The notes below the pieces were generated by a model. It saw only the letters and a program-made list of their open reading frames with translations, did no database searches and was not told where the DNA came from. Positions 15,821-22,890 of a DNA stretch of 22,890 bases are shown piece after piece. The stretch is from a virus, in IMG/VR virus record IMGVR_UViG_3300042375_000193, positions 1 to 22,890 of that record; one strand, 5' to 3'. The stretch's first letter is position 1. Each line of letters starts with the position of its first letter. The position numbers and the translations under genes were made by a program.

Positions 15821-17680
15821 TTAGATGAATGTGCGGTCTTTCTCTGCGAGCAGTTCATCTATGTTGATAACTGTTCGTTTGCCTACTTCTTGTCGAGATA
15901 GGAAAGGGTTTTTCATATGGTGGGTCTTGTGCATACCTTGGTTGAGCATCTCACGTGCTCTAATCTCACAGAACCACAGAGCCATCACCATATCGGTCTT
16001 GCCTTTAGTAGTAGGCGACCACGTAATCAATTGCTCAATGAGCGCCTTAACGTTTTCAGTTTGATCTGAAGGTAAGTGAATAAGGTTATCGCGGTGGTGC
16101 TTGCCATCGAACTGCTTGGTGCCGAACAAAGTTGACATTGATGCAACACCAAAGCCTGAGTCCCACTTGTTGGTTCCAGTATGGTGTTCCCGCAGTAGCA
16201 CTCCTCGGCTGGCCAAGTTTGCACGGATACCTTCATCCTGAGTTAAGAAAGATTGAAATGCGTTCTTCTCTACAATCCACTCACTGGGTGAGTAGAGGGT
16301 AGTCCAGTCAAAGATTAGCTGACGGATTGCAGCAGGCGTTGGCCTAGTAATTTTAATAGCATCAACGATATAGCGTTTATGTGTAGCCCTATCAACAGCG
16401 TAACAAACGACGGCTGTATCACCAACCATAGCGGGATCAAGACCACAAATAAAAGAAAAGCCGTTGACATCACGCGGATGGCCTGGGTTACCAGGAACCA
16501 AGCGACCTGCTTTACGCATACCATCTATAGAACCTCGCACACATACTGGGTCAAAGATGGCATCATCTGAGATATCTTGTTGTTGATAAACCAAAGCCCA
16601 GGTGCTTGCATCCATAGCTTGGCGTTCGTTGTAAAGGTTGCGACCATTCCATCTAGGATAGAGGCCGTCCTCATCTTTATCAGATTCCATCTGACCATCA
16701 AAGGGGGCATCACTTGCAGGCCAGAGGGTTTCCCACTTGTCGGGGTCATTGTCTGTAGAAAGCAGAGCCGGCATTGCAAGGTAGGTCCAAGGGACCTGTC
16801 CACCAGGGTAGCGGTCTTCTGAGCGTAGCTCCTTGTATAAATCTACTGCAGATACTCGCGTACCAATAATAATCAATTTACCAGTAGGGTTCAAACGAGA
16901 GCGCACATCCTGGGTAAGCCATCTAATCTGCTTCTCAAACTCGTTGGCGTTCTTCAAGGTTACTGCGTCATCTACTATAATCATATCTGCACGCTTGCCG
17001 TAGATCTGACCACCGATACCAACGGCTTCGATGTTCGGGTCTTTCTCGCTGGACTCACGAAGCTCATCACCAAAGGTGACACGGGTAGCCTGCCACGAGG
17101 CTGACTTAGAGTTAAACCCTACGCCAGCAGCGTAAGCCTGTTGGAGTGCTTCATAATTTGGATGAGTCAGGCGTTGCTTGATGGCGTAGAGAAAGTCGGC
17201 AGCTAACTGCTGCGTCTGAGATACGATGAGTACTCTAAAGTTAGGGTTCTGACATACCTGCCACGTGACGTAATCAATGGTTACAGTCATAGACTTGGCG
17301 TGGTTGGGCGGAATGTTAAGAAGGATTCTGTTATTAGCTAGACCCTTTTCGTACTTCATACTAGGATGTAGCCAGCCAGGTTCTCTACCTTCGATTACAT
17401 CAATCAGGTTCTGCTGGTGTGGGAAAGTGCGGGAGTGTAGGTACTTCTGGCGAAAGTCTGGAAAGCTCAGGTCGTGTACATCAGATGCTGCAAAGGACTT
17501 ATCCTTTAGACCAAGGCGTGTTCGGTCTACCTTGTCTGTAAATATCTTGTCGGTTCTGCGATAGTACTCGTAGGTCTTCATTGATTTGCCGGCGGAGGTA
17601 CAGGCGGCCTCAATGGTCATACCTTCAGCTACACAGCCAAGGATAATTCTCTTGGCGATATCAGCACTATTTTCAGCCAT
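15821..17680 (-). CDS. terL: Terminase large subunit (packaging ATPase/nuclease) with N-terminal HTH
   Basis: A 619-aa protein. It pumps DNA into the procapsid through the portal and cuts it. Visible motifs are a Walker-A-like NIPPNHAKSM (122-131), of the deviant form common in TerL; Walker B DMIIVDDAV (232-240); motif III IIGTR (271-275); and the RNase-H-like nuclease start CGLDPAMVGDTAV (412-424) with the first catalytic Asp at about 415. Residues 20-42 (EAACTSAGKSMKTYEYYRR) look like a helix-turn-helix of the type found in small terminase subunits, and no separate TerS gene is seen. The ATG at 17678-17680 overlaps the upstream small gene by 8 nt. Firm call. Confidence 0.93.
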   Translation of the reverse strand: MAENSADIAKRIILGCVAEGMTIEAACTSAGKSMKTYEYYRRTDKIFTDKVDRTRLGLKDKSFAASDVHDLSFPDFRQKYLHSRTFPHQQNLIDVIEGREPGWLHPSMKYEKGLANNRILLNIPPNHAKSMTVTIDYVTWQVCQNPNFRVLIVSQTQQLAADFLYAIKQRLTHPNYEALQQAYAAGVGFNSKSASWQATRVTFGDELRESSEKDPNIEAVGIGGQIYGKRADMIIVDDAVTLKNANEFEKQIRWLTQDVRSRLNPTGKLIIIGTRVSAVDLYKELRSEDRYPGGQVPWTYLAMPALLSTDNDPDKWETLWPASDAPFDGQMESDKDEDGLYPRWNGRNLYNERQAMDASTWALVYQQQDISDDAIFDPVCVRGSIDGMRKAGRLVPGNPGHPRDVNGFSFICGLDPAMVGDTAVVCYAVDRATHKRYIVDAIKITRPTPAAIRQLIFDWTTLYSPSEWIVEKNAFQSFLTQDEGIRANLASRGVLLREHHTGTNKWDSGFGVASMSTLFGTKQFDGKHHRDNLIHLPSDQTENVKALIEQLITWSPTTKGKTDMVMALWFCEIRAREMLNQGMHKTHHMKNPFLSRQEVGKRTVINIDELLAEKDRTFI

Positions 17681-18428: not shown

Positions 18429-18562
18429 CTAGGCGGACCTATCACCTTTGCAGCTGCCACCGGGCTAACCCTGGTCCCTGGCCTATCGGCCCGGCCCTAA
18501 CTCTTATTAGATCCGATTAGATAAGTGACCCGACACGGGCCAGAATTGACCCGGTTAGGTGG

Positions 18563-18646: not shown

Positions 18647-18790
18647 ATGACTAACAAGCCAGACCTATATCAGCAGGGCTTTATAGATGGCGCAAAGTAC
18701 GCTATTGAATACCTAAGTGACTTATTCGATGGTATTGAAGAGACCGACATCTATGCAGATTACTTTAGTAATGAAGAGGAGACTAACTAA
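18647..18790 (+). CDS. Small acidic protein, 47 aa, first rightward gene
   Basis: ATG at 18647 with AAGGGT 7 nt upstream; begins MTNKPDLYQQGFIDGAKYAI and ends FSNEEETN. The net charge is strongly negative and it is probably helical in the middle (YAIEYLSDLFDGIEE). The QGFxDGxKYA start is a common motif in tiny phage proteins of early regions. It joins the next gene by TAATG. Function unknown; host-takeover proteins are often of this size and charge. Confidence 0.75.
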   Translation: MTNKPDLYQQGFIDGAKYAIEYLSDLFDGIEETDIYADYFSNEEETN

Positions 18791-19077
18791 TGAATACTAA
18801 AGATATAAAAGATATTATGAATAAGATTGAAGAGACCGCGCCTAATGGCTCTAAAGTAACCTGGTCATATCCTGGTTATGTCTCTATCGTGTTGCCTAGT
18901 GGAGTTGAACTAGCCTTTGGTGAATCACTAGAGAGCGATAGTGGATATTCTTGGAATGCCTACGATTTAGACGGTACTAATAACATCCTCGACTCATTCG
19001 ATGACCTAAAGGATATTGACCTAATCGTCTCCACCTTATGGGACCAGGCTAAGCAACTAGTGAAGGAGAATATCTAA
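18790..19077 (+). CDS. Hypothetical acidic protein, 95 aa
   Basis: Starts at the TAATG junction with the preceding gene (MNTKDIKDIMNKIEE) and ends TLWDQAKQLVKENI. It reads as an N-terminal helix, three or four beta strands (KVTWSYPGYVSIVLPSG; VELAFGE), an acidic turn and a C-terminal helix, so a small alpha+beta domain. No family is recognised. The stop region carries AGGAGAATATCTAATG, which serves as ribosome-binding site and start of the next gene. Confidence 0.75.
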   Translation: MNTKDIKDIMNKIEETAPNGSKVTWSYPGYVSIVLPSGVELAFGESLESDSGYSWNAYDLDGTNNILDSFDDLKDIDLIVSTLWDQAKQLVKENI

Positions 19078-19219
19078 TGAATTGCGACATATGCCAGGCA
19101 AGCGAGAATCTTTTATCAGAATCAACTAAAGCAACCCTGCGCTCTAATTGGACCGGAGTGGACTTTTATAATGCAATCTGCAATGAATGTTGGAATAAGC
19201 AAGAGGAGAATATCTAATG
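19064..19219 (+). repeat. Two copies of the junction AGGAGAATATCTAATG
   Basis: Identical 16-mers at 19064-19079 and 19204-19219, each comprising the ribosome-binding site, the stop of one gene and the start of the next. Both upstream proteins therefore end in ENI. This suggests gene-cassette duplication or recombination at a shared junction. Confidence 0.7.
19077..19217 (+). CDS. Mini zinc-ribbon-like protein, 46 aa
   Basis: TAATG start; C3-D-I-C6 and C35-N-E-C38 form two CxxC knuckles 28 residues apart, the form of a zinc ribbon. Nothing else fits in the chain, so it is likely a single zinc-bound unit that binds nucleic acid or a host protein. Its last bases repeat the same AGGAGAATATCTAATG junction as the gene before it. 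Confidence 0.72.
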   Translation: MNCDICQASENLLSESTKATLRSNWTGVDFYNAICNECWNKQEENI

Positions 19220-19438
19220 GCTAAATTGCAAGATTATGAGATTGAAGAGCAATATAAAGAGATGTTAGACGATTGCTATGGCACGGTTAAGATTGCGGGA
19301 TATGAATACGGGACCGCTTACGCATTACAAGAGTGTGACCCTATTGCCTACCGTGTAGGCCTATCCGATTATGAAGGGACTCAAGAGTGTGCAGAATGCT
19401 CTAATGTCTTAAGCGATTGTGAGTGTGATGATGAATAA
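19217..19438 (+). CDS. Conserved small phage protein with Cys-rich tail, 73 aa
   Basis: Begins MAKLQDYEIEEQYKEMLDDC. The central segment YGTVKIAGYEYGTAYALQEC then DPIAYRVGLSDYE (about 21-53) matches a small family that I recall from many actinophages: V-x-I-x-G-x-x-Y-x-x-x-x-A-L-x-x-x-D-P-x-A-x-R-x-G. No function is assigned. The C-terminus adds C58-x2-C61 and C68-x-C70, a possible metal site appended to the conserved domain. The start uses the TAATG junction. Confidence 0.8.
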   Translation: MAKLQDYEIEEQYKEMLDDCYGTVKIAGYEYGTAYALQECDPIAYRVGLSDYEGTQECAECSNVLSDCECDDE

Positions 19439-19592
19439 CCTCACGCCTAGAGGGTGGCTAGTGTTAGGCATTGCGATAGGCCTAGCCATTGCGGGCTTAT
19501 GGTGGGTATCTGGTCATATCTGGTATATAGAAGGAGAGGGCTATTGTATCGGGACACTCTTAGAGTGTGACCCTGCAGCTTTCACTAGGTAG
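19431..19592 (+). CDS. Single-pass membrane protein, 53 aa
   Basis: ATG at 19431 overlaps the previous stop by 8 nt. MNNLTPRGWL is followed by a hydrophobic helix VLGIAIGLAIAGLWWVSG (about 11-28) and a short outside-type tail with two Cys (C39, C46) and ECDPAAFTR. The positive residue before the helix suggests the N-terminus is inside. Small one-helix proteins like this are frequent in actinophage early regions; a holin or superinfection role is possible but unsupported. Confidence 0.7.
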   Translation: MNNLTPRGWLVLGIAIGLAIAGLWWVSGHIWYIEGEGYCIGTLLECDPAAFTR

Positions 19593-19600
19593 GTGACTCT

Positions 19601-19630
19601 CGCTCTCTTGCTCGATTGAGTGAGAGAGCG
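19601..19630. terminator. Long hairpin before the clamp gene
   Basis: Arms 19601-19613 (CGCTCTCTTGCTC) and 19618-19630 pair over 13 positions, with two G-U wobbles and the loop GATT. It lies just after the membrane-protein stop. There is no T tract, so it may act as an attenuator, processing site or mRNA-stabilising element. Confidence 0.55.
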
Positions 19631-19634
19631 GGGG

Positions 19635-19650
19635 CCGATTACCTAATCGG
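19635..19650. repeat. Palindrome CCGATTA-CC-TAATCGG
   Basis: Perfect 7-bp arms with a 2-nt centre, 4 nt after the long hairpin and 31 nt before the clamp start. The CCTAATCG word also occurs in the leader of the first rightward gene (18614-18621), so a shared operator is possible. Confidence 0.5.
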
Positions 19651-19681
19651 ATCTAAATAACTAAGAGATAAGGGTGAGAGA

Positions 19682-20311
19682 ATGACTGCTGTAAAAGAGA
19701 ATGAGAGCAAGATAGTGAAAGAGGGAGAGACCAACCTGGTGATGAATAACATCACTATCGGATCTATTGACCTATTAGAGTTGCTAGAGGGCGCAATTAC
19801 TCACGCGGATAAGGGTAAGTCTGCCCTACGCTCTCTTAATAGCGTGCAGCTGCTAGGTGGGGCAGGTAGTCTAATAGCCCGTGCCACCGATAGATACCGC
19901 TTAATCGAGGGTAAGATAGCGGGAGAGGGCCATTTAGACCATACTCTTATCGCGCTAGATGATATTAAGAGAGTGATAGAGGTGGCTAAGGCTAACAAGC
20001 TAGGCTTGTTTACTCTTAACCGTATAGGTGACCTGCTAACCGTGAGCACTAATGGCAGCTCACTCACACTTACCGTGTTAAGTGAGAATTACCCTAACAC
20101 CTTCAGCGATCTATTCGCTAAGGGAGAGGTAACCGCTATTGAGACTATCGCTTTCAACCCTGCATTCTTCGCTGATTATGCGAAGATAGTAGGCAAGGGT
20201 GTGCAGGTATCGGTTACTTTCAAGGGAGAGCGTATGCCTATGGTAATCGGACTAATAGGGGATAAAGTGGAATGGAAGGCTCTCCTTATGCCTATGCGCT
20301 TAAGCAATTAG
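19682..20311 (+). CDS. Short sliding clamp (DNA polymerase III beta-like), 209 aa
   Basis: Similar to the C-terminal half of bacterial beta clamps, which encircle DNA and tether polymerase. Evidence: LLELLEGAITHADKGKSALR leading into a strand; ARATDRYRLIEGK (about 67-79), the ATDRYRL signature; ENYPNTF (135-141), equivalent to the YPD turn; and the C-terminal LLMPMRL (201-207), nearly the universal MPMRL end. Only about three beta-alpha-beta-beta-beta units are seen, against six in the 366-aa bacterial protein. The first 20 residues are extra to the fold; ATG at 19682 has AAGGGTGAG upstream, while a later ATG at 19742 has none. It implies phage-encoded replication. Good confidence on the family. 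Confidence 0.82.
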   Translation: MTAVKENESKIVKEGETNLVMNNITIGSIDLLELLEGAITHADKGKSALRSLNSVQLLGGAGSLIARATDRYRLIEGKIAGEGHLDHTLIALDDIKRVIEVAKANKLGLFTLNRIGDLLTVSTNGSSLTLTVLSENYPNTFSDLFAKGEVTAIETIAFNPAFFADYAKIVGKGVQVSVTFKGERMPMVIGLIGDKVEWKALLMPMRLSN

Positions 20312-20320
20312 TTAGTGGCG

Positions 20321-20361
20321 TACTATCTTATTCTACCTATATAGGGTAGAGTAAGGTAGTA
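20321..20361. terminator. Long hairpin after the clamp gene
   Basis: 17-bp stem (arms 20321-20337 and 20345-20361; ACTATCTTATTCTACC pairs with GGTAGAGTAAGGTAGT) with two G-U wobbles and a 7-nt loop, 9 nt after the clamp stop. It has no T run. It is the third of three hairpins that precede an ATAAGGGT leader on this strand. Confidence 0.6.
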
Positions 20362-20408
20362 TCTTACTAAGAGCTAGTGAGATAGTTAAGAGAATAAGGG
20401 TGAAAGTA

Positions 20409-20567
20409 ATGACGATAGAGAGAGTAAAGCATAGTGGCGCTTATGTAATAAGCGAGATAGCGGGAGAGGGTAGTAATGCTTATCTATTTACCCGCAGCTA
20501 TTACGGTTACACCTTAGCGCAAGCTAAAGCACAATTTAAACTAGCGATAGAGGGAGAGGTAAAGTAA
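20409..20567 (+). CDS. Hypothetical protein, 52 aa
   Basis: ATG at 20409 with AAGGGTGA upstream, giving MTIERVKHSGAYVISEIAGE and ending AQFKLAIEGEVK. It looks like a small beta sheet (strands AYVISEIAG and AYLFTRSYYGY) followed by a helix (LAQAKAQFKLAI). The tail EGEVK results from GAGGGAGAGG, which is the ribosome-binding site of the next gene. TAATG junction. No family is recognised. Confidence 0.72.
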   Translation: MTIERVKHSGAYVISEIAGEGSNAYLFTRSYYGYTLAQAKAQFKLAIEGEVK

Positions 20568-20731
20568 TGAATGATTATGGCTTTATAGTAGAGGATCTAG
20601 GCTTAATCTGCCCTAAGTGTGCAGATAACCCGCTCTATCAAGATGTATTAGAGCGAGTAGAATTATCAGGTTATCCCGATGGATACAGTTGCGCTGAGTG
20701 CGACGATTTAGTAGAGGGAGAGGTGGCTTAA
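20567..20731 (+). CDS. Mini zinc-ribbon-like protein, 54 aa
   Basis: TAATG start; C15-P-K-C18 and C42-A-E-C45 are spaced as in a zinc ribbon. It is acidic elsewhere (VEDLG; ECDDLVEGEVA). The stop-proximal GAGGGAGAGG again doubles as ribosome-binding site for the next gene. A nucleic-acid or host RNA-polymerase contact would be typical of such ribbons, but nothing specific is visible. Confidence 0.72.
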   Translation: MNDYGFIVEDLGLICPKCADNPLYQDVLERVELSGYPDGYSCAECDDLVEGEVA

Positions 20732-20838
20732 TGAGATGTAGATACTGTAAAGCGATCATTCAATATACAAGCAGTCAGGGCGGGGTTTACTGGTCTTGTC
20801 AAGATTGCGGTAGAGATACGAAAGTGGAGGTAGCGTAA
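20731..20838 (+). CDS. Mini zinc ribbon, 35 aa
   Basis: One of the shortest genes: MRCRYCKAIIQYTSSQGGVY then WSCQDCGRDTKVEVA. C3-x2-C6 and C23-x2-C26 with the WxCxxCG pattern make a near-minimal zinc ribbon with nothing around it. The start is in a TAATG junction and the stop in another TAATG, so the coding call rests on the tight packing plus the clear motif. Confidence 0.72.
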   Translation: MRCRYCKAIIQYTSSQGGVYWSCQDCGRDTKVEVA

Positions 20839-21065
20839 TGCAAGAATTAAGCGAGACTAATTACCGTATTAGTATTCGAGAGTTCGAGGATATGGAGAGC
20901 GAGAGCCAGAGAGCGTGGTTAATAGATCTATTAGACACTAACGGTAATTGCATAATCGAGGGAGCCGGCGTAGCCGGTACTTTAATGGCAGCTATGGGAG
21001 AGGCGGGTAAGGCTATTACTTTACACCTAGCTGATGAATGGCTAATGGCAAGGGGGACACTATGA
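20838..21065 (+). CDS. Hypothetical protein, 75 aa
   Basis: Begins MQELSETNYRISIREFEDME, includes a strand-like ESQRAWLIDLLDTNGNCIIE, then a Gly/Ala-rich turn (GAGVAGTLMAAMGEAGKAI) and helix HLADEWLMARGTL. It looks like a small alpha+beta domain; no family is recognised. TAATG at its start and ATGA at its end couple it to both neighbours. Confidence 0.72.
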   Translation: MQELSETNYRISIREFEDMESESQRAWLIDLLDTNGNCIIEGAGVAGTLMAAMGEAGKAITLHLADEWLMARGTL

Positions 21066-21265
21066 GTTACGAGCCAGAGCTAAATGACCCGGTATTCTAT
21101 GGGGTAGAGGAGGAGGTAGAGCCTATTAAGTGCTTTAGATGTAGTGATGAGCTAGATGAGGAGGAGATAGTGTGGGCCGATGTTGAGGGCCAGATAGTGA
21201 AAGAGGGCAACGATACTGCGTGGTGCGTATCGTGTTTACCAAGCGAGGGAGATAGCAATGAATGA
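21062..21265 (+). CDS. Small acidic zinc-binding-like protein, 67 aa
   Basis: ATG at 21062 is chosen because it overlaps the previous stop as ATGA; an in-frame ATG 24 nt upstream would increase the overlap and lacks support. C24-F-R-C27 and C55-V-S-C58 form a pair of CxxC knuckles separated by an acidic hairpin (DELDEEEIVWADVEG). It is very acidic overall (MSYEPELNDPVFYGVEEEVE). It might mimic DNA or bind a host protein; this is inference. Confidence 0.74.
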   Translation: MSYEPELNDPVFYGVEEEVEPIKCFRCSDELDEEEIVWADVEGQIVKEGNDTAWCVSCLPSEGDSNE

Positions 21266-21419
21266 AGAGTATCTAGCAGCTAAGGCTAACTTATGTCTTA
21301 ATCAAGCTGAGATAGATCTTAAGCAGGAGGAGATAGCCAGGGCTATTAAGAATCTAGAGCGTGCTAATAGTGCGCTATCACGCTTGTTCGGACTAGAGGG
21401 AGAGGCTGATGATAACTAA
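21258..21419 (+). CDS. Small helical protein, 53 aa
   Basis: ATG at 21258 overlaps the preceding stop by 8 nt, with AGGGAGATAG upstream. The chain MNEEYLAAKANLCLNQAEID is followed by KQEEIARAIKNLERANSAL: a predicted pair of amphipathic helices or one coiled coil. The tail GLEGEADDN contains the next ribosome-binding site. No family known. Confidence 0.7.
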   Translation: MNEEYLAAKANLCLNQAEIDLKQEEIARAIKNLERANSALSRLFGLEGEADDN

Positions 21420-21531
21420 TGAGCTACTTATCGAAGCGTTAGAGATAGCTAAGAATAATTTTGATTATGATGCTGAGTATCATAAGTCAGAAGCCATTGA
21501 AGAGTATCTAAAGGAGTTAGCTGATGAGTAA
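21409..21531 (+). CDS. Small acidic helical protein, 40 aa
   Basis: ATG at 21409 to TAA at 21529-21531: MITNELLIEALEIAKNNFDY then HKSEAIEEYLKELADE. GAGGGAGAGG lies just before the start. It overlaps both neighbours (11 nt upstream, 8 nt downstream). Two short helices are likely; no motif is recognised. The call rests on operon packing and the ribosome-binding site. Confidence 0.65.
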   Translation: MITNELLIEALEIAKNNFDYDAEYHKSEAIEEYLKELADE

Positions 21532-21766
21532 TATCTACACCATACACCCAAAGAAGTCCCCACTTATCCTGCTCTATGAGGTAGTGGACGAGAACGGGAA
21601 CGCTGAATGGGGAGGTAATAACGCTGAGCATTGTATGCAATGGCTAAGCCTTGCTCCTAGCAACTCCCGTGTGCTGGTATCGGGGTGGGAGAGCGATGAA
21701 GAGGACGCTCACTTAGTGGGTCAGAGCCTAGACATCACCGACATCATTAAAGCAGCCAGCTTATGA
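21524..21766 (+). CDS. Conserved actinophage protein of unknown function, 80 aa
   Basis: Begins MSNIYTIHPKKSPLILLYEV and contains VVDENGNAEWGGNN, HCMQWLSLAP, VLVSGWESDEEDAHL and ends ITDIIKAASL. This series is familiar from many phages of Actinomycetota, always small and without assigned function, and is one of the better links of the window to that host group. Its start overlaps the previous gene by 8 nt and its stop overlaps the next start as ATGA. Confidence 0.82.
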   Translation: MSNIYTIHPKKSPLILLYEVVDENGNAEWGGNNAEHCMQWLSLAPSNSRVLVSGWESDEEDAHLVGQSLDITDIIKAASL

Positions 21767-22117: not shown

Positions 22118-22388
22118 GAACAAGGCACTTATCATTAGTTACCTCAACGCACTCGGTTACAACGACAGTCAGGTCAAATGTGCGCTCACCCTTTGGACCC
22201 GTGAGAGCCGGCTTGACCACTTGGCAGACAACAAACGATCCAGTGCTTACGGAATTGCTCAGCTCCTTAGAGAGAGAAGTAGCGAGCCTGCTATCCAAAT
22301 CCTCCACGCTGTGCGATATGTTGAGCACCGTTACTCAGGAAGTTTCTGCCGCAGTCTCCAGCACAGCAACAGAGTCGGCTGGTACTGA
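21975..22388 (+). CDS. Membrane-anchored lytic transglycosylase-like protein, 137 aa
   Basis: ATG at 21975 is chosen for the AAAGGAG 5 nt upstream. The N-terminus MSKRARLGVLLLIAGLLLVF is a signal peptide or signal anchor. The domain from about 50 on holds LWTRESRLDHLADNKRSSAY and GIAQLL: E77-S is the likely catalytic Glu of a soluble-lytic-transglycosylase-type fold, and AYGIAQ matches its xxGxxQ strand. The rest (AIQILHAVRYVEHRYSGSFC ... WY) also follows that family. It would cut peptidoglycan outside the membrane, for lysis or for entry. Short compared with cellular enzymes. An alternative start 21 nt upstream is weaker. The stop overlaps the methyltransferase start as TGATG. Confidence 0.8.
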   Translation: MSKRARLGVLLLIAGLLLVFIPEQTAHHPLEIPQMQARTKATMEEKRENKALIISYLNALGYNDSQVKCALTLWTRESRLDHLADNKRSSAYGIAQLLRERSSEPAIQILHAVRYVEHRYSGSFCRSLQHSNRVGWY

Positions 22389-22890
22389 TGAAACTTCTTG
22401 ACCTATATTGTAAGGCAGGGGGAGCGAGTAAAGGTTATGTTGACGCTGGCTTTGAGGTTACTGGTATAGATATCAAGAAGCAGAAGCGGTATCCCTTTAC
22501 TTTCATACAAGCAGATTGCCTGGAGATACTACAAGATTTGGAATATCTACGTACTTTTGATGTGATTGCAGCTAGTCCACCCTGTCAAACGCATAGTGCA
22601 ACTAAGCACTTGCGTAATGCACAAGGCAAGAGCACGGATAAGATAGATCTAATTCCACAAACAAGAGAAGCTTTAATTGCCAGTGGTATAACTTATGTCA
22701 TTGAAAATGTACCAGGTGCACCATTAATTAATCCAGTACAGTTTTGTGGCTCATCATTTGGATTGAAGGCACGCAGGCATAGACTCTTTGAGTCTAATGT
22801 GCCATTAGTAGGTGATCAATATGCGATCACAAGACACAGGGTAAACCTGTTGGTATCTATGGTTCAATGCGTGATGAGATCCCTGGAGGT
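22388..22890 (+). CDS. DNA cytosine-5 methyltransferase, 5' part, with apparent indel near 22820
   Basis: Starts MKLLDLYCKAGGASKGYVDA (motif I, AdoMet binding; K replaces the usual G of FxGxGG, as in other phage Dcm-like enzymes). Then ASPPCQTHSA (motif IV, catalytic Cys of PPC), YVIENVPGAP (motif VI, ENV) and ARRHRLFES (motif VIII). It methylates C5 of cytosine, probably to protect phage DNA from restriction. After VPLVGDQY near 22822 the expected family continuation CDHKTQGKPVGIYGSM is in another frame (22822-22890), as though one T were lost from TATTGC. The gene continues past the window edge. Confidence 0.88.
   Translation, partial: MKLLDLYCKAGGASKGYVDAGFEVTGIDIKKQKRYPFTFIQADCLEILQDLEYLRTFDVIAASPPCQTHSATKHLRNAQGKSTDKIDLIPQTREALIASGITYVIENVPGAPLINPVQFCGSSFGLKARRHRLFESNVPLVGDQYAITRHRVNLLVSMVQCVMRSLE

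Follow-up and report, generated by a model that had tools for sequence, protein, structure and literature searches.

The nin region of phage lambda is a run of small, overlapping genes whose content varies, and some of these reportedly encode zinc-ribbon-like proteins. Its host, position and content differ from those of the locus described here, a block of small genes, including genes for tiny proteins with paired cysteines, on both sides of a sliding clamp gene in a 22.9-kb virus fragment from IMG/VR (record IMGVR_UViG_3300042375_000193, positions 1 to 22,890; we refer to this whole stretch as the window). Gene-boundary mosaicism, in which single small genes are inserted or replaced, has been described in actinobacteriophages, with gene 68 of Island3 and Brujita as a case, and adjacent genes with shared 3' ends were presented in the same work as a first example (PMC3029335). 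In mycobacteriophages of Cluster K, a short conserved sequence, the 13-bp GGGATAGGAGCCC, is located just upstream of the starts of many unrelated genes (PMC3203893). Both gene-boundary mosaicism and start-associated sequences are already known in actinobacteriophages (PMC3029335, PMC3203893). The cultured 'Ca. Planktophila' phages LanE43AprE7 and LanE43AprF5 (E7 and F5; OX376640 and OX376641) share 96.8% average nucleotide identity, show high gene flux between them and carry WhiB (PMC10202952).

Comparison of the window with its relatives indicated that the region around the clamp gene is, very probably, a hypervariable and modular small-gene region of freshwater actinophages; this statement concerns its anatomy alone. 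In contrast to the shared-3'-end case described previously (PMC3029335), single-gene exchange is widespread here, over 75 cassettes, and is coupled to a recurrent ribosome-binding site (RBS) motif. The Cluster K sequence GGGATAGGAGCCC was unmatched in the window at up to two mismatches, and the motif found here is instead GAGGGAGAG-like and part of the upstream gene. E7 and F5 have the same gene encoding a tag plus a predicted zinc domain (EPQLNDPVFY...CxxC...CxxC), and small genes are swapped in the corresponding region of their genomes. However, neither of these genomes contains the GAGGGAGA linker motif, their genes are often approximately 100 nt apart rather than overlapping, and no homologue of the clamp protein of the window was found in either. 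We found no description of this locus in the limited literature searched, and the combination of enriched zinc mini-proteins, start-codon swaps and a relay of RBSs appears to be undescribed.

The initial annotation of the window had proposed a run of five tiny zinc-ribbon-type proteins. Five open reading frames (ORFs) of 35-73 aa were indeed present at the proposed starts (19077, 19217, 20567, 20731 and 21062), each encoding two Cys pairs. Each of the five starts is preceded by a purine-rich RBS and abuts or overlaps the preceding stop codon. The ORFs do not form an unbroken run, as two precede and three follow a DnaN-like clamp gene (19682-20311), with other tiny genes that lack Cys pairs interspersed. 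The expectation that the five would recur as one set in related phages was not borne out: individual genes are swapped, and it is the class, tiny four-Cys proteins, that is kept. We refer to the five genes by start position as z19077 to z21062, and to their neighbours in the same way with the prefix g.

Scanning with two queries, the clamp and the 80-aa anchor gene on the right-hand side of the block (g21524; 21524..21766, plus strand), identified 167 loci besides the window, which gave 75 distinct clamp-to-anchor intervals including that of the window itself. The anchor gene is conserved in an alignment of its homologues and delimits the block; 399 relatives of it were detected in viral contigs, of which the best 80 were taken. 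Genes were called in a simple way from codon use, with Cys codons treated as neutral, together with RBSs; the calls are approximate, and the counts are therefore estimates. The 75 intervals contained 592 small genes in 173 families, with 103 singletons and 52 families of the zinc type. At least two Cys pairs were encoded by 157 of the 592 small genes, compared with a mean of 24 (maximum 35) after shuffling of residues within each protein. Cys-pair genes were most frequent in the block (26.5%), less so over the 1.5 kb that precedes the clamp (12%) and least so downstream of g21524 (2.9%). Neighbours also varied, with the 37 members of one zinc-type family (family 2) adjoining 20 different families upstream and 17 downstream. 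The gene that most often opens the block (family 1; 20400..20567, plus strand, with its ATG at 20409) was present in 40 of the 75 cassettes and lay directly after the clamp in 34. A nearly universal small gene (family 0; 21258..21419, plus strand) was present in 73 of 75 cassettes, with 37 different families just upstream of it.

Exchange in this region involves single genes, and the breakpoints fall at start codons. Between the window and locus L133, synonymous divergence (dS) was 1.63 for the clamp, 0.29 for g20400, 0.15 for z21062, 0.86 for g21258 and 0.84 for g21524. A block of 98% identity with this locus spans 21061-21261, so that z21062 (21062..21265, plus strand) was exchanged singly. 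In locus L041, high identity likewise begins at 21061 and extends rightward, and the genes to the left are unrelated. Locus L027 has in common with the window the swapped module g20838 (family 19; 75 aa, no Cys pairs; 20838..21065, plus strand), with 86% DNA identity over 20827-21067 and different genes on either side. Genes are also gained or lost at stop-start junctions: L133 has an additional gene following z21062, and L071 has an extra 55-aa gene between the homologues of z19077 and z19217. In the cultured pair E7 and F5, 35 of the 36 tag nucleotides are identical, but identity falls to 58% in the zinc domain that follows, which retains its four Cys; F5 also has a further zinc-type gene that E7 lacks. 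Zinc-type mini-genes were located at 24032-24163 and 25578-25718 in OX376641 and at 38681-38824 in OX376640. These two phages differ by zinc-domain and gene replacement amid an approximately 97% identical background.

The purine-rich GAGGGAGAG-like motif is located before the start codons of unrelated genes, inside the gene upstream. Of 225 GAGGGAGA copies, 166 lay in the 28 nt that precede a called start, positions that make up 16% of bases; the window contains four copies against 0.1 expected, and the motif was not evident before the listed starts of structural genes. Identity of the linker was 0.87 between loci sharing the upstream gene and 0.41 between loci sharing the downstream gene only, against a background of 0.40, a comparison that is partly built in since the linker sits inside the upstream coding sequence. 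Because linker identity follows the upstream gene, the exchanged module is an ORF that begins at its ATG and ends in a tail used by the following gene. Swaps preserve the RBS-bearing linker, and we regard this as the point that matters. The last codons of each gene carry the RBS for the next, so that an incoming gene would be translated wherever it lands. We also considered co-inheritance of the linker with the downstream gene, through exchange via identical linker DNA, and rejected it: identity upstream of a shared gene ends after a median of approximately 1 nt. A minority of shared genes have 13-18 nt of exact identity upstream. In the window, 13-nt direct repeats, TAGAGGGAGAGGT, flank z20567 at 20548 and 20712.

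We then compared the individual Cys-pair proteins with their homologues. The initial annotation had tied its proposal to conservation of the Cys pairs, and these are conserved in the four genes with homologues, z20731 having none; the predicted zinc Cys are invariant across all four families. In z19077 (46 aa, CxxC...CxxC; 19077..19217, plus strand) the four Cys are invariant in 5 of 5 aligned sequences sharing 65-72% identity, and in z20567 (54 aa, CxxC...CxxC; 20567..20731, plus strand) in 6 of 6 sharing 45-64%. All 14 aligned members of the z21062 family (67 aa) retain the four Cys of its CxxC...CxxC domain. Median ratios of non-synonymous to synonymous substitution (dN/dS) were 0.13 for z21062, 0.19 for z20567 and 0.20 for z19077, with a single usable pair for z19217. 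These ratios give a clear signal of purifying selection in the families tested, and the alignments of the z19077, z20567 and z21062 families also contain conserved non-Cys columns (W, G, P, D and Y). The 35-aa ORF z20731 (CxxC-x16-CxxC; 20731..20838, plus strand) is an orphan candidate gene, with an RBS and a stop-start overlap, which had no homologue among the collected relative loci and a best phage-database match at E=0.1.

Two of the five proteins have more than the Cys motifs and little else that had been ascribed to all of them. The N-terminal tag of z21062, MxYEPxLNDPVFY, is conserved in its family and is fused to various Cys domains, or to none. The 73-aa z19217 (19217..19438, plus strand) is not a minimal zinc scaffold, since besides its C-terminal CxxC-x6-CxC it has a widespread 52-aa phage-family domain, with residues 8-63 matching phrog_9294 at E=3e-13. 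Members of the phrog_9294 family in Vibrio, Escherichia, Acinetobacter, Pseudomonas and Proteus phages share this domain and carry other tails, without CxxC/CxC. The CxxC/CxC Cys were invariant in 3 of 3 actinophage sequences, scans of viral contigs with z19217 having returned two distinct relatives only; C20 and C40, outside the predicted zinc Cys, were lost in one relative. The Cys tail of z19217 is an addition in this lineage to a widespread phage domain. The domain itself is encoded at 19217-19372, has the pattern LD..Y...DP.A.R.G..D and occurs across phages of many Gram-negative hosts.

Judging by their spacing and conservation, the Cys pairs probably coordinate zinc, in what would be minimal folds of the ribbon, knuckle or treble-clef type. 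Apart from the match of z19217 to phrog_9294, the zinc-type genes were given no informative name by searches of Pfam, PHROGs, NCBIfam or PADLOC, and profile searches of the PDB gave nothing significant, the best match of z20567 being an RPB9/TFIIS-type ribbon (1qyp, E=0.16). None of ten proteins of the region matched PADLOC-DB, a library that lists defence and not counter-defence proteins.

The terminase large subunit of the window (15821-17680, minus strand; phrog_38) was closest to those of E7 and F5 (46-47% identity) and next closest to those of Streptomyces phages (44%), which indicates a common broad lineage. In addition, whiB, an actinobacterial marker, was detected over the Pfam cut-off in 13 of 13 longer relatives; the window, which is a fragment, gave no match to PF02467 (WhiB), and nor did any of the five Cys-pair proteins. 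The terminase relationship and the presence of whiB in all of the longer relatives make a freshwater actinobacterial host, possibly of the 'Ca. Nanopelagicales' group, likely. When bacterial and archaeal genomes were scanned, the clamp alignment retrieved no relatives, and no prophage thus provides a link to a host.

We propose that this modular region supplies zinc mini-proteins that are made early and that bind host or defence factors, acting in takeover of the host or in counter-defence. Taken as a whole, with its functional part included, we rate this proposal at slightly below even odds. A four-Cys zinc site free of disulphides would be the cheapest stable fold for such binders, and rapid gene replacement would track host diversity. 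We favour a role in takeover or counter-defence because genes turn over between phages of the same host, because the Cys scaffold is kept over individual genes, and because of the position of the region. Early genes directed at the host could reasonably be expected in a small-gene operon beside the clamp, in phages that carry whiB. Several observations count against this proposal. Gene turnover by itself is no proof of a role in host conflict, and the linker comparison is in part a consequence of where the linker lies. No anti-defence or transcription-factor family was matched. The AlphaFold model of z20567 was too poor for use (mean pLDDT 52) and that of z21062 was weak (mean pLDDT 67, approximately 70-80 over the Cys core, with short beta strands), and Foldseek found no significant fold match, the best weak ones being other zinc folds. 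Scans for promoters and terminators were at or under chance. Since sigma-70-like promoters were not above chance, the term 'early' is based on gene neighbourhood.

It is also conceivable, if rather doubtful, that the locus has evolved for evolvability as a plug-in effector library, in which start-codon exchange with a relay of RBSs would be combined with four-Cys folds as the preferred minimal scaffold from which new host binders arise, including domain swaps behind a constant N-terminal tag.

Zinc ribbons are common among replication and transcription proteins, and the mini-proteins might instead be nucleic-acid-binding accessory factors of phage replication or transcription that vary by drift and not through conflict. 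The adjoining clamp gene would fit such a role, as would the resemblance of z20567 to the 1qyp ribbon, weak and not significant as it is. Core partners of this kind should however persist among relatives, but the majority of zinc-type families were seen in just one or two of the 75, and even the commonest, family 2, in 35; most of the proteins are also acidic by inspection, and not basic. We therefore consider this explanation unlikely. We judge about equally improbable that the ORFs are transient passengers, which would enter by recombination a region that tolerates insertions and supplies an RBS, and would have little function and short residence. The many singletons (103 of 173 families), the 35-aa z20731 without a relative and the permissive operon architecture are all compatible with passengers. 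However, purifying selection is clear in those families that have homologues, and an approximately 6.5-fold enrichment in paired Cys is not what passengers should show.

There is only a slim chance that the proteins form a small Cys-rich pool that stores zinc or counters oxidative damage, in which Cys number alone would matter. This would account for a class that persists although its sequences and identities differ, but non-Cys positions are constrained within families (dN/dS approximately 0.13-0.20, with invariant W, G, P, D and Y), and the Cys density of four per protein is unlike that of metallothioneins. Descent of the mini-proteins from Fe-S WhiB-like regulators, four-Cys proteins typical of actinophages, can be dismissed almost entirely despite the occurrence of whiB in all 13 longer relatives, as the whiB genes are separate, none of the five proteins matches Pfam WhiB, and their Cys are spaced as two separated pairs.

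The clamp gene (19682..20311, plus strand) is a conserved anchor that encodes a 209-aa DnaN-like sliding clamp or processivity factor, matching phrog_947 at E=2e-8 and TIGR00663 at E=4e-6, the latter under its curated cut-off; its homologues share 41-89% identity. It is flanked by two uninterrupted hairpins on the plus strand, one of 17 bp upstream (19597..19634) and one of 19 bp between the clamp stop and the first downstream small gene (20320..20362; z-score -5.2). Stem searches in relatives and in shuffled sequences detected a pre-clamp stem of at least 12 bp in 53 of 75 relatives versus 0 of 75 shuffles. A post-clamp stem of at least 12 bp was found in 68 of 74 relatives, with a median of 18 bp, compared with 10 bp or less in shuffles. 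The post-clamp stems had 44-53 distinct arm sequences, so that pairing is conserved while sequence varies, and they lacked a clear T-tract after the stem. On the plus-strand transcript the stems contained 189 U-G pairs versus 75 G-U pairs; tolerance of wobble pairs with this excess is as expected of an element that acts at the RNA level. No known RNA in Rfam matched, hairpins included. The hairpins may be sites of RNA processing or partial termination, through which the clamp would be expressed separately from the variable blocks. A 25-nt inverted repeat (84%; 18507-18531 and 19632-19656) bracketing the upstream small genes was also considered and dropped, being conserved in 1 of 57 relatives in an 8-mer core test.

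Elsewhere in the window, the structural arm is on the minus strand and the small-gene arm on the plus strand. Upstream of z19077, a 95-aa gene without Cys pairs (18790..19077, plus strand) holds in its 3' end the RBS of z19077 and has 52% identical homologues in two relatives (L012 and L013). A gene for a C-5 cytosine DNA methylase (PF00145, E=3e-5), whose first part lies at 22388-22888, is truncated at the window end, and positions 2-547 on the minus strand encode a collagen-like G-x-y repeat protein (GPTGATGATG...), probably a virion fibre.

What keeps exchanged genes functional, and whether short boundary sequences guide their exchange, is a long-standing question (PMC3029335). In the locus described here, single genes have been exchanged many times in parallel and a RBS tail recurs, and the cultured phages E7 and F5 already hold related swaps. 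It also points to a large unannotated pool of predicted minimal zinc proteins in phages of freshwater bacteria that rank among the most abundant, which is a likely source of new takeover or counter-defence mechanisms.

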